This document shows positions 30,672 to 35,766 of a stretch of 35,895 nt of DNA, one piece after another. The notes beneath the pieces were generated by a model. It was not told where the DNA came from. It saw nothing but the letters and a program-made list of their open reading frames with translations, and made no database searches. The DNA is taken from positions 1 to 35,895 of IMG/VR virus record IMGVR_UViG_3300026521_000230; one strand, written 5' to 3'. The stretch comes from a virus. Position 1 is the first letter of the stretch, and the number at the start of each line of letters is the position of its first letter. Both the position numbers and the translations under genes were made by a program.

Positions 30672-31034
30672 ATGATGGATGATATTGTAAAAATAAAAGG
30701 TTTGCGTAATAGCTACCAAGATGATGAGGGATTTATAAACAAATTAAAAAAAGCTTATCTAAAGGGTGATACACATTATGATAAATTTGTATTTTTATCA
30801 AAACATAAAGATACATTATATGTGAAATTAGAGGAGCATTTAAATTTAAAACCACTATCCAAGTCTTATTTTAAACAACAACAATATTATTATGAAAAGT
30901 ATCACATAAATAATAATATTGTTGAAAAAAAACCGTCTTGGATGCGATCAGATGAGTTTAAAAGAAATATGATCATAAAATATGGTTATGATGTGGTAAT
31001 AAAAAAGGGCAAAAATGAAAAAATTTATATATGA
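30672..31034 (+). CDS. Hypothetical protein upstream of DNA polymerase (120 aa)
   Basis: Not recognised. The protein is helical and basic, with QDDEGFINKLKKAYLKGD near the start and a Tyr-rich QQQYYYEKYH stretch in the middle, ending in KPSWMRSDEFKRNMIIKYGY. It overlaps the start of the polymerase gene by 20 bases, so it is cotranscribed and probably coupled. A polymerase accessory factor is a positional guess only. Confidence 0.62.
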   Translation: MMDDIVKIKGLRNSYQDDEGFINKLKKAYLKGDTHYDKFVFLSKHKDTLYVKLEEHLNLKPLSKSYFKQQQYYYEKYHINNNIVEKKPSWMRSDEFKRNMIIKYGYDVVIKKGKNEKIYI

Positions 31035-32895
31035 TATTGAACTTGACAAATCCCATTTTGGTGTGGGATTTATGAATATAAAAAATAAAAAAGTCAAGCA
31101 ATTTAATCTACACAAAGATGGGCAACTTGAAAAGCTCAAAAAATATCTTAAAAAACATCAACCTTTACTTATAGGCTTCAACTCATTAAACTTTGATGAC
31201 ATGCTGCTTCATTTTGCATTAAAAGGTAAAAGTATTGCACAACTATATGATATCTGTATGAGTATCATTGATGAAGGCAAAAGACGCTATCAGTTTGAGA
31301 ATATAAATATACAAAGCATTGATTTGATGGAAGTTGCACCGTCCCAAGCAGGATTGAAGTTGTATGGAAGTAGGTTGATGGCTAAAAAGTTGCAAGACAT
31401 GCCTGAAGATTACAACAACGATGATGTTGACTGGGATGGGATTATGCAATACAATGTTAACGATTTGGAACTGACATTGTTGCTATATAAAGAGCTTGAA
31501 GATGCTTTGAAGCTAAGAAGAGATTTGGCAAAAGAGTATGATCTAAGTGTGATTGATGTGCTAAGTAAGAGTGATGCTCAAATTGCTGAATATGTGTTTA
31601 AAAATTTACTTGAATACAAAAAACCTATAAGAGTGAGTGAAGTTAGCTATGAGGCACCTGCATACACAATGGTTGATCCAAATAGTGTTACATATGAAGT
31701 AGCCACAAAGTTTAATGGAACTACATTCAAAATTAATCAAGGTAACGGTTCACCTATTACGCCCGATTGGATAAAAGCTAATGACAAAGTAACAATAGAT
31801 GGTGTTGATTATACAATAGGTTTAGGGGGACTGCATAGCAACGAGAAGAGTGTTGCTATAAAACCACAAAAAGGATATGTTTTAGCAAATGCTGACATTA
31901 GTTCTATGTACCCAAGCCTTATCATTAATTCAGGCTTATATCCCACAAACTTTGGTGAAAAGTGGAGAGAAGTTTATACTAAGTTCAGGGATGAAAGATT
32001 GAAACTAAAACCAGACCCTAAACAAAAGAAAAGAGTTGCAATGCTTAAGATTTTTCTAAATGGAACCTATGGTAAGCTTGGCTCTGTTTACAGTGTGTTG
32101 TATGCACCTCATTTGCTTTTAAATACAACTTTGACAGGGCAACTTACTTTGCTACAAATTATTGAAGAGTTGGGTAAATTGAATGATGTTAAAGTGGTAA
32201 GTGCTAACACAGATGGGTTAGAATATGTTTGTAAAAAACAAGATTTTGAAAAGTGTAAAAAACTCATTGATGATTTGGGCAAAAAAGCAAATCTTATTTG
32301 GGAACACGCAACATACAAAGCTTTATATAGTAGGGATGTGAATAGCTATATTGCTATCTATGATGGATATGCAAAAAGAAAAGGTTTTTTTGCTAAACCT
32401 AATCTTAGTAAGAATGTTGAGTATCCTATTGTACTCGATGCTATTGAACAGTTTTTGCTAAATGGAACAGACCCTAAAGAAACAATAAATAATTGTAAAG
32501 ATATAGCTATGTTCTGTAGTGCAAGAAAAGTGACAGGTGGAGCTTTTTGGGATGATAAAGACTATTCGAACACTGAAGAGTACAATCAATATATCATAGA
32601 TGTGCAAACTAAAGGTAGGAAACAAAATAAAGCTTTAGAGAAGCGTAATCTTGAACATCAAAAAAAACTTATGTTAAATGATGAGAATGTGAAAGAGTGT
32701 TATTTGGGTAAGGTTGTGCGATGGTATTATGCTAAGGGTGGTAAACCTATCTATTATGTTAAGTCAGGTAACAAAGTGCCAAAAACTGATGGATGTAAAC
32801 CTATGATGGAGTTAAGTGATACAATACCAAATGATTTAGACTATGAGTATTATTACTCTTTAGTTGAGCTACATTTAAGTGATGTGGGTGTATAA
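31015..32895 (+). CDS. Family B DNA polymerase
   Basis: The 626-residue protein is the replicative polymerase. The proofreading exonuclease shows Exo I YDIEL (6-10, Asp7 and Glu9), Exo II GFNSLNFDD (54-62, Asp61) and Exo III YNVNDLELT (146-154, Asp150). The polymerase part has motif A ANADISSMYPS (291-301, Asp294), motif B KIFLNGTYGKLG (345-356) and motif C SANTDGLEY (396-404). In motif C the first Asp of the usual DTDS is Asn (398), while the essential second Asp (400) is kept. It has no obvious protein-priming insertion. The stop lies in the promoter of the following antirepressor cassette. Confidence 0.9.
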   Translation: MKKFIYDIELDKSHFGVGFMNIKNKKVKQFNLHKDGQLEKLKKYLKKHQPLLIGFNSLNFDDMLLHFALKGKSIAQLYDICMSIIDEGKRRYQFENINIQSIDLMEVAPSQAGLKLYGSRLMAKKLQDMPEDYNNDDVDWDGIMQYNVNDLELTLLLYKELEDALKLRRDLAKEYDLSVIDVLSKSDAQIAEYVFKNLLEYKKPIRVSEVSYEAPAYTMVDPNSVTYEVATKFNGTTFKINQGNGSPITPDWIKANDKVTIDGVDYTIGLGGLHSNEKSVAIKPQKGYVLANADISSMYPSLIINSGLYPTNFGEKWREVYTKFRDERLKLKPDPKQKKRVAMLKIFLNGTYGKLGSVYSVLYAPHLLLNTTLTGQLTLLQIIEELGKLNDVKVVSANTDGLEYVCKKQDFEKCKKLIDDLGKKANLIWEHATYKALYSRDVNSYIAIYDGYAKRKGFFAKPNLSKNVEYPIVLDAIEQFLLNGTDPKETINNCKDIAMFCSARKVTGGAFWDDKDYSNTEEYNQYIIDVQTKGRKQNKALEKRNLEHQKKLMLNDENVKECYLGKVVRWYYAKGGKPIYYVKSGNKVPKTDGCKPMMELSDTIPNDLDYEYYYSLVELHLSDVGV

Positions 32896-32896
32896 T
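32891..32896 (+). promoter_or_regulatory. -10 box for the antirepressor cassette 2 RNA leader
   Basis: TATAAT at 32891-32896 overlaps the polymerase stop codon. The -35 region is weak. A start near 32903 would place the RNA leader (from 32919) close to the 5' end. The equivalent promoter of cassette 3 has TTGACT-18-TATAAT. Confidence 0.6.
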
Positions 32897-32918
32897 ACAC
32901 TCACAAGAACTTAAATTG

Positions 32919-33035
32919 TACTCTTCAAGGTGTCCAAGTTTCCATTGGCATTCACTCTTCGGGGTGGGTGTCATAAAATTTGAATAGCTTGAAGAGTATG
33001 TGCTACTTATGTGTATATTTGGAAAACTTGGACAC
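32919..33035 (+). ncRNA. Structured RNA leader of antirepressor cassette 2 (c4-like)
   Basis: Arms in order: A5' TACTCTTCAAG (32919-32929), immediately B5' GTGTCCAAGTTT (32930-32941, plus CCA), hairpin C (32946-32957 with 32962-32973, C-UUCG-G tetraloop), A3' CTTGAAGAGTA (32988-32998), then B3' AAACTTGGACAC (33024-33035). A is perfect over 11 pairs, B over 12 plus 3 across one bulged A. Hairpin C has 12 pairs including four G-U pairs that fold only as RNA of the plus strand. B3' ends 44 bases before ATG 33080 and is followed by TTTT. The order recalls P1 c4, an antisense RNA that pairs with the downstream ant message. The RNA reading is strong; the mechanism is inferred. Confidence 0.72.
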
Positions 33036-33162
33036 TTTTCCTCAATCTTCTAAATTTTATTGTCTGAAAGAAAATCATAATGAAAAACATAATTAATGCT
33101 AGAGAGGTGTAATCGGTCAAGAGTCTGTCAATAGTGTAAATGCTAGAGATTTATGGAGAGCG

Positions 33163-33783
33163 TTGGAGAGTAAACAAGATTTTAGTACTTGGATGAAAGC
33201 TAGATTAGATAAGTGTATGGCTACTGAAAACGAGGATTATATGGTTCTCCACAAAAAAATGGAAAACCCTACAGGGGGGCGTCCACAGATAGAATACATA
33301 CTATCAACTGACTTAGCAAAAGAAGTTGCAATGCTAGAGGGTAACAAAAAAGGTAAAGAAGTTAGAAAATACTTTATTCAAGTAGAAAAAGAGTATCGTA
33401 AACAACAAGAGAAACCAATGAGTACAACTGAAATGATGATTGCCCAGCTTCAAAAACAATTAGAACAAGAAAAAATAAATAATCAAGTAACTCAAAAACT
33501 GTCAACACTTGACAACAAGATTGACAAAGTAGCAAGTGAGATTAGAGTTAGTAGAGAAGTTTTACCACAAACAGGTTTTATGAGTATTGATGGATTGAGT
33601 AAAGAGTGTGGTTTGAGTAACAATACTATAAAACGAATTCTTAAGATAGTTAAACCATATGTAGCATACAAAGCTAAAACAGTTAAAAAGTTTGTTAAGC
33701 AAATGAGAAAAAGTGCATATCCTATTGGTAAAGGTACATTTTATAGATGCCCAATAGTAGATTTCAAATGGCAAAATATATAA
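33163..33783 (+). CDS. AntA-type antirepressor, copy 2
   Basis: The body has a full AntA domain: NARDLWRALESKQDFSTWMK, then ENEDYMVLHKKME, TGGRPQIEYILSTDLAKEVA and KGKEVRKYFIQVEKEYRKQ. Unlike copy 1 it has a coiled linker (MIAQLQKQLEQEKINNQVTQ) and a C-terminal helix-turn-helix (MSIDGLSKECGLSNNTIKRI). The ancestral ATG is 33080, but 14 bases (33098-33111) replace 15 in the other copies and put a stop at 33110-33112. The body frame is open from 33103; the first usable start is TTG 33163, with GGAG 4 bases before it, which would cut the first part of the AntA domain. It lies between polymerase and FEN genes and follows the RNA leader. Activity is uncertain. Confidence 0.72.
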   Translation: MESKQDFSTWMKARLDKCMATENEDYMVLHKKMENPTGGRPQIEYILSTDLAKEVAMLEGNKKGKEVRKYFIQVEKEYRKQQEKPMSTTEMMIAQLQKQLEQEKINNQVTQKLSTLDNKIDKVASEIRVSREVLPQTGFMSIDGLSKECGLSNNTIKRILKIVKPYVAYKAKTVKKFVKQMRKSAYPIGKGTFYRCPIVDFKWQNI

Positions 33784-35492: not shown

Positions 35493-35566
35493 GAGTAAAG
35501 AAACTGCTCAAAAACTATTTGACTTTTATCAGCGTTATGTGGTATAATGCTGATAAAGAACTTTAA
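35489..35566 (+). CDS. Tiny possible ORF (25 aa) overlapping a promoter
   Basis: ATG 35489 overlaps the preceding stop as ATGA and reads MRVKKLLKNYLTFISVMWYN then ADKEL and a stop at 35564-35566. The frame runs through the TTGACT and TATAAT of the cassette 3 promoter and into the first arm of the RNA leader. It would be translated by coupling only on read-through transcripts. Whether it is a gene is doubtful. Confidence 0.3.
   Translation: MRVKKLLKNYLTFISVMWYNADKEL
35519..35548 (+). promoter_or_regulatory. Sigma70-type promoter of antirepressor cassette 3
   Basis: TTGACT (35519-35524), 18 bases, TATAAT (35543-35548). The predicted start at about 35555 coincides with the first base of arm A (35556), so the RNA leader would begin the transcript. 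Confidence 0.72.
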
Positions 35567-35651
35567 CGGGGTATCAAGTCCACGAGATATCATCTATCTT
35601 GATGATGTCCCGTTAAGGTTCTTAATTGTTGTAAAAGAGACTTGATACCCC
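35556..35651 (+). ncRNA. Structured RNA leader of antirepressor cassette 3 (c4-like)
   Basis: Same order of arms as at 32919, with unrelated sequence. A5' AAGAACTTTAACGGG (35556-35570) pairs with A3' CCCGTTAAGGTTCTT (35609-35623), 15 pairs with one G-U. B5' GTATCAAGTC (35571-35580) directly follows A5' and pairs with B3' GACTTGATAC (35639-35648), 10 pairs. Hairpin C ATATCATC (35587-35594) pairs with GATGATGT (35601-35608), with one G-U pair. B3' ends 47 bases before ATG 35696 and is followed by a pyrimidine-rich CCCTCTTCT. The last arm is in the 126-bp repeat, so copy 1 at the window start probably has the same leader outside the window. Confidence 0.7.
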
Positions 35652-35766
35652 TCTTCTACAAAACCTTAAATATTCTTCGTATCGAAAGTAAATCAATGAA
35701 AAACATAATTAATGTTAGTAAAAATGTAATCGGTCAAGAGTCTGTCAATAGTGTAAACGCTAGAGA
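35641..35766 (+). repeat. 126-bp direct repeat, right copy
   Basis: Identical to bases 1-126. It spans the end of the RNA leader, the untranslated tail and the first 23 codons of the antirepressor. Bases to the right differ from 127 onward (CTTATGGAAAGC here). See the left copy. Confidence 0.95.

Follow-up and report, generated by a model that had tools for sequence, protein, structure and literature searches.

A candidate C4-like antisense leader RNA, built differently from C4, ahead of AntA-type antirepressor genes in a phage contig and in Thiovulaceae

How are the antirepressor genes of this phage kept in check, and what part is played in this by the complementary arms that precede them? 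The DNA analysed here (the window) comprises one entire IMG/VR contig (35,895 bases), in which ant copies 2 and 3 each follow a structured leader (Table 1). The ATG frame of ant copy 2 reads MKNIINAREV and closes after 10 codons (stop at 33110-33112), and its AntA domain goes on in the +1 frame; copy 2 is one base shorter than copy 3, and the break may be due to an error, mark the gene as dead or be programmed. The frame of ant copy 1 (56-536) breaks as well, and assembly or read errors may account for the breaks in these two copies. Both contig ends lie inside ant copies, with positions 1-126 identical to 35641-35766 (126 bases) and the sequences divergent beyond, so it is probable that the genome has additional ant copies and that the repeats are where it was cut. 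Upstream of leader 2 and ant copy 2 is a gene (31015-32895) for which Pfam gave no match and which we would read as DNA-polymerase-like.

The leader of ant copy 2 (leader 2) was described in a first-pass annotation as two pairs of arms and a UUCG hairpin in the order A5'-B5'-C-A3'-B3'. This arrangement is present and lies far above chance, as none of 1000 dinucleotide shuffles reached the observed score, either for leader 2 or for leader 3. Stem A consists of 11 Watson-Crick pairs (32919-32929/32988-32998) and reaches 13 with 32917-32918/32999-33000, G-U included. Helix B has 15 pairs (32927-32941/33024-33038), of which one near the end is G-U, and continues past a bulge as TTTCCA/TGGAAA; its 3' arm ends 41 nt ahead of the ant ATG. 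In hairpin C (32946-32957/32962-32973, closed as C-UUCG-G), four of the 12 pairs are G-U, so that C folds only as plus-strand RNA, as had been pointed out from the start. The -10 box lies 20 nt ahead of A5'.

Leader 3 (35540-35696), which was absent from the first-pass annotation, follows the plan of leader 2 in different letters. Its helix B comprises 13 perfect pairs (35568-35580/35639-35651), and B3' lies directly 3' of a purine-rich AAAAGAG, 44 nt ahead of the ATG. A scan of both strands of the whole window reported no more than leader 2, leader 3 in mirror image and a single weaker case on the minus strand. A palindrome, different in each leader, overlaps the -10 box: in leader 2 the box sits within a 21-bp near-palindrome, GTGGGTGTATAATACACTCAC (32884-32904), and in leader 3 it is flanked by the inverted repeat TTTATCAGC (35525-35533)/GCTGATAAA (35549-35557). 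By analogy with Oc4, the C1 operator at the P1 c4 promoter, these are perhaps operators for different repressors.

Table 1. Features of the two leaders and their ant genes in the window.
Feature	Position	Strand	Basis
-10 box TATAAT of leader 2	32891-32896	+	sequence; promoter activity inferred
A5' of leader 2, 5' strand of closing stem of the candidate c4-like RNA	32917-32929	+	pairing; homologous stem covaries between genomes
B5' of leader 2, candidate antisense segment AAGGTGTCCAAGTTTCCAT	32927-32945	+	pairing and duplex energies
C of leader 2, hairpin of 12 pairs with UUCG tetraloop	32946-32973	+	pairing and predicted fold
A3' of leader 2, 3' strand of closing stem and end of the proposed 84-nt RNA	32988-33000	+	pairing
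B3' of leader 2, candidate target in ant leader TGGAAAACTTGGACACTTT	33020-33038	+	pairing and duplex energies
ant copy 2 (AntA/AntB antirepressor)	33080-33783	+	Pfam PF08346 E=4.8e-21; also PHROG anti-repressor Ant
Extended -10 box TGGTATAAT of leader 3	35540-35548	+	sequence; promoter activity inferred
A5' of leader 3	35556-35576	+	21 pairs with 35603-35623; last 9 nt common to B5'
B5' of leader 3, candidate antisense segment GGGGTATCAAGTC	35568-35580	+	pairing and duplex energies
C-equivalent hairpin of leader 3, competes with upper part of A	35586-35609	+	pairing and predicted fold
A3' of leader 3	35603-35623	+	pairing
B3' of leader 3, candidate target GACTTGATACCCC	35639-35651	+	pairing and duplex energies
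ant copy 3, cut off by contig end	35696-35893	+	Pfam AntA E=3e-13

Nine leaders with this plan were found, all of them ahead of AntA-type ant genes: the two of the window, one in a viral contig (L286), three in Candidatus Thiovulum stygium (L092, L096 and L138) and three in genome G449 (L144, L163 and L164). Similarity of the ant protein or DNA led to the Thiovulum and G449 loci, and structure was not used as a query. L092 and L096 came from an AntA protein search, followed by L138, and G449 came from a DNA search within the order; a later search assigned it to the family of the Thiovulum genome (G031). L286 was obtained by searching viral contigs with an ant alignment, and its leader resembles leader 3 (GGGTACCAAGC/GCTTGGTACCC vs GGGGTATCAAGTC/GACTTGATACCCC). 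When 127 distinct ant upstream regions were passed through an architecture detector, it found the leaders of the relatives, P1, the C4 loci L218 and L220, and L098; leader 3 was skipped because of the detector's overlapping-arms rule. L098 was rejected as a further case, since it looks like an ordinary hairpin plus chance despite its detector score.

Wider searches added little to this set. The first 80 AntA loci in viral contigs gave no further case, except possibly L007-L010, and the AntA loci in 397 Campylobacterota genomes gave none beyond the Thiovulum genome; that most sampled Campylobacterota AntA genes are without such a leader counts against the explanation preferred below. When viral contigs and the 397 genomes were scanned for the conserved core, only chance matches or known loci came up; a DNA search with both leaders against 50,697 phage records returned no match, and relatives sought through the DNA polymerase and the exonuclease amounted to one polymerase relative (L085), with no ant at that place. 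The new covariance model for which the first-pass annotation had called (R1, built from the six Thiovulaceae leaders alone) has leader 2 at full length as its best match in the window (20.4 bits, E=0.02); it misses leader 3 and L286, a further point against that explanation. In the 397 genomes it gave three weak matches, none with the architecture.

L007-L010 are viral contigs akin to an Acinetobacter phage, in which a C4-like leader (at about 2830-2930) is unreported by the Rfam C4 model; its loop TTCGACTACTCATT and the sequence AATGGGTAGTCGGAG, which lies across the SD of an AntA-type ant gene, are complementary. In another Campylobacterota genome, L290 contains at about 1580 (reverse complement) the 18-mer ATGAAACTTGGTAACTTT that is common to the target regions of L163 and L164. 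It looks like the start of an ORF that we take to be RelE/HigB-type, and its sharing is probably a coincidence. Within the stretch seen, no obvious prophage surrounds the ant cassettes of the G449 loci or of L092. Neighbours of the Thiovulaceae cassettes are ZorB/ZorA-like genes, a HinP1I-type restriction enzyme and PemK toxins, and one cassette lies between a class-III aminotransferase gene and nuoA.

According to the first-pass annotation, its proposal would fall if the arms did not stay complementary in homologous leaders; they are complementary in all nine, and the c4-like relation of antisense and target within one transcript upstream of ant, which it had also proposed, is upheld to the extent that this complementarity is kept. 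An alignment of six leaders (three from Thiovulum and three from G449) has 98.8% paired cells and eight pairs with double changes, and its covariation score of 0.260 was reached by 0 of 500 shuffles (0.124±0.018), with slid registers scoring at most 0.062. In stem A, for instance, UU-AA in one genome corresponds to GG-CC in the other, and pairing is kept. Between sister copies within a genome it is mainly a part of B that differs, changed on both sides with compensation. Doubly changed pairs make up 7 of 26 in this variable part, as opposed to 0 of 54 in A and the conserved B core, CCAAGT/ACTTGG (Fisher p=0.0002, in a test that treats pairs as independent, which neighbouring pairs strictly are not); elsewhere, T1 and T2 differ at 2 of 170 sites. 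In computed energies the cognate duplex is the best in nine of nine rows. The B5' of leader 2 gives -24.4 kcal/mol with its own target vs -12.2 with that of leader 3, and the B5' of leader 3 gives -23.5 kcal/mol with its own vs -6.4 with that of leader 2. For the window pair the difference is large; in G449 it is small (-26.5 vs -24.6 at least). The variable part of B can be read as an address private to each copy, of the kind that the P1/P7 C4 RNAs have, and each gene copy seems to have a private off-switch of its own.

The short leader RNA is probably a C4-like antisense repressor of its own ant gene, built differently from C4. In our reading, A closes an RNA of 61-100 nt, the antisense segment of which is B5'; the target, close to the translation start, is B3'. 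The first-pass proposal of A5'-B5' as antisense and A3'/B3' as target is thus retained for B and given up for A, which is the RNA's own closing stem, as in P1 c4. The promoter ahead of each ant would first yield a short structured RNA, A5'-B5'-C-A3' (84 nt long in leader 2, 68 nt in leader 3). During transcription stem A would be the first to form, leaving the B3' target free and ant translatable. A short RNA copy, or the 5' part of another transcript, would then pair through B5' with B3' near the translation start, blocking ant expression so that the phage or element stays quiet. As the B address differs from copy to copy, each RNA would silence only its own gene. In leader 3 and the six Thiovulaceae leaders a -10 box lies about 7-12 nt ahead of A5', so the 5' end of the RNA is probably at the stem or close by, and this distance suggests that the start of the stem is a primary 5' end.

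The position of the target bears on the level at which repression would act. In the Thiovulaceae copies and leader 3 it is found at a purine-rich stretch that resembles an SD. The target of L163 and L164 (G2 and G3) takes in GGAAGAG and, after a spacer of 7 nt, an ATG; the frame of this ATG ends in L163 at TAATG, the ant start, and in L164 runs into ant. Pairing would cover both the SD-like stretch and the ATG, and translational repression, as by C4, is therefore the best reading. The targets of the other seven leaders, including both of the window, are without an ATG at proper SD spacing, so that a block to the translation start is clearest only in G2 and G3. It counts against an antisense repressor that A takes up most of B5' in its own pairing in leader 3 and L286.

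A switch that acts only in cis would leave many of the same traces. In such a switch A (target free) and B (target blocked) would be exclusive folds, between which transcription speed, ribosomes or a ligand decide, with no RNA acting in trans; a helix formed in cis would also show B5'-B3' complementarity and compensatory change. The A and B states are about equal in energy (-51.5/-49.7 kcal/mol in leader 2 and -40.4/-40.1 in leader 3; in G1-G3 the B state is favoured over A), which agrees with a switch, as does the linker of 0-2 nt between A3' and B3' in the six Thiovulaceae leaders, because of which full-length A and B exclude each other in cis in those six, a point that also speaks for the antisense repressor. 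The 3' end of the short RNA has neither a terminator nor a known processing site, which is a point for the switch and one against the antisense repressor. However, a helix in cis would have no reason to differ between sister copies, and the doubly changed pairs fall in the variable part of B and not in A or the core. Since only part of B is recoded between sister copies and the neighbouring helix is unchanged, as would be needed by co-resident RNAs with private addresses, action in trans is likely, and we hold a switch in cis alone to be unlikely, though worth keeping in view.

The opposite sign of regulation is improbable. Here the ant message would be dead, with its start sequestered, and a short RNA from the same promoter would open it in trans, on the model of isrK-orf45-anrP in Gifsy-1 (PMC4825925). 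The gene order is the same (short RNA, small ORF in some copies, antirepressor), the leader has two conformers, and six leaders have an SD-like GAAGAG able to pair with an ACTCTTC further downstream; but the start region, along with part of the SD-like purine run (GAACTC with GAGTTC), is itself covered by the antisense segment, so pairing would block and not free it, and the read-through terminator is not seen. Very little weight is given to a pseudoknotted leader with A and B formed together, or to a DNA-level element (operator, cruciform or recombination site) in place of RNA pairing. Formally, a pseudoknot has the order A5'-B5'-A3'-B3', and inverted repeats overlap the two promoters, but the short linker rules out two full helices in six leaders, A runs into B5' in leader 3 and L286, and the four G-U pairs of C belong to plus-strand RNA only. 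Hardly any chance is left to an intrinsic terminator or attenuator, in which the B hairpin followed by TTTT would stop transcription. This had been suggested for leader 2, where TTTT does follow B3'; the other leaders are without a U-run, and the loop closed by B would measure about 55-95 nt (about 80 nt in leader 2).

The antisense repressor may also be placed in a wider, and decidedly doubtful, setting. The leaders could represent a new family of antisense off-switches for AntA, encoded in cis and orthogonal to one another, spreading as small cassettes (promoter, RNA, target and ant) in phages and as lone chromosomal units of Thiovulaceae beside nuoA or defence genes (Zorya-like, HinP1I-type restriction enzyme, PemK toxins), each sensing or controlling one invading or resident phage. 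If a differently built RNA does the work of C4 ahead of AntA antirepressors in Campylobacterota, antisense control of antirepressors would be either older or reinvented, and the current RNA model would miss this version. Genomes with several copies offer near-identical RNA-target pairs that differ only in address, so that specificity between co-resident antisense RNAs is directly testable. Within the open-access literature, of which coverage was incomplete, nothing relevant was found on phage, antirepressor, antisense RNA and Campylobacter together.

C4 itself is the closest known system for comparison. It has three stem-loops, is cut by RNase P, and has a segment b' partly over the ribosome-binding site and a segment a' for specificity, the C4 RNAs of P1 and P7 being set apart by a 4-nt difference (PMC5320573). 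The Rfam C4 motif (RF01695), derived from PMC2864571, had been proposed as a check on the leaders; at a threshold of at least 45 bits it gave no match in the window or in L286, L144 and L138, though it detected P1 (68.8 bits), L220 (58.7) and L218 (58.1), the latter two being Rfam-recognised C4 RNAs that also lie ahead of AntA-type ant genes. Rfam at curated and relaxed thresholds gave, for the leaders, only chance matches to eukaryotic miRNA and snoRNA families. The order A5'-B5'-A3'-B3' is also found in P1 (L084), if A is taken as the c4 stem (4343-4360/4401-4418) and B as b'/b2 (4375-4387/4453-4465). The antisense segments of P1 run b'-a' and the targets a2-b2, i.e., nested, so that A and B as two antisense-target pairs would not be the C4 arrangement, and A as a stem is.

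Like C4 of P1 and P7, the candidate RNA lies in the leader of an antirepressor operon, is of similar size (77 nt in C4, 61-100 nt here), and has a long closing stem, an inner hairpin (with UUCG in P1 and leader 2) and, in all nine leaders, a segment complementary to the downstream start region. Specificity varies with matching changes in the target in both, as in C4 heteroimmunity (PMC5320573), which is seen here in sequence and computed energy. On the other hand, C4 has two inner hairpins (P1, P2 and P3 with loops a' and b' in all), whereas the predicted folds here have the closing stem and essentially one; the antisense of C4 is in the loop of the third stem, and here it is 5' of the inner hairpin. 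Instead of a' and b' of 7-8 nt there is a single address of 11-25 nt, bipartite (core and variable part) only in the Thiovulaceae copies, and the target lies 41 to about 65 nt ahead of the ant ATG, unlike in C4. C4 is released by RNase P, with the cut at the 5' end of its closing stem, and the RNA here is proposed to begin at or near the promoter start. Finally, the C4 RNAs catalogued so far come from beta- and gammaproteobacteria and from phages of these groups; the Thiovulum and G449 relatives here are Campylobacterota. By its pairing, the leader RNA would work like C4, and it is not an Rfam C4.

Two further systems share part of this design. In the Salmonella prophage Gifsy-1, IsrK and the anrP message likewise join a short RNA and an antirepressor message at one promoter with two exclusive folds, and the small ORF orf45 is coupled to the antirepressor (PMC4825925). 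Judged from the sequences, a small ORF overlaps the ant start at TAATG in L163 (from ATG), at ATGA in L286 (only from TTG) and by 17 nt in leader 2 (from TTG), and is fused in frame to ant in L164 and leader 3; none was seen in the Thiovulum copies. IsrK is an activator whose 3' end is set by an intrinsic terminator, in contrast to the leaders here, where no U-run follows A3' in any of the nine and pairing would cover the start region. The Group 1 C4-like sRNAs of Acinetobacter baumannii also occur in many copies per genome with differing specificity loops (PMC5320573). They match Rfam C4 and their targets are unknown, whereas here each RNA adjoins its matching target.
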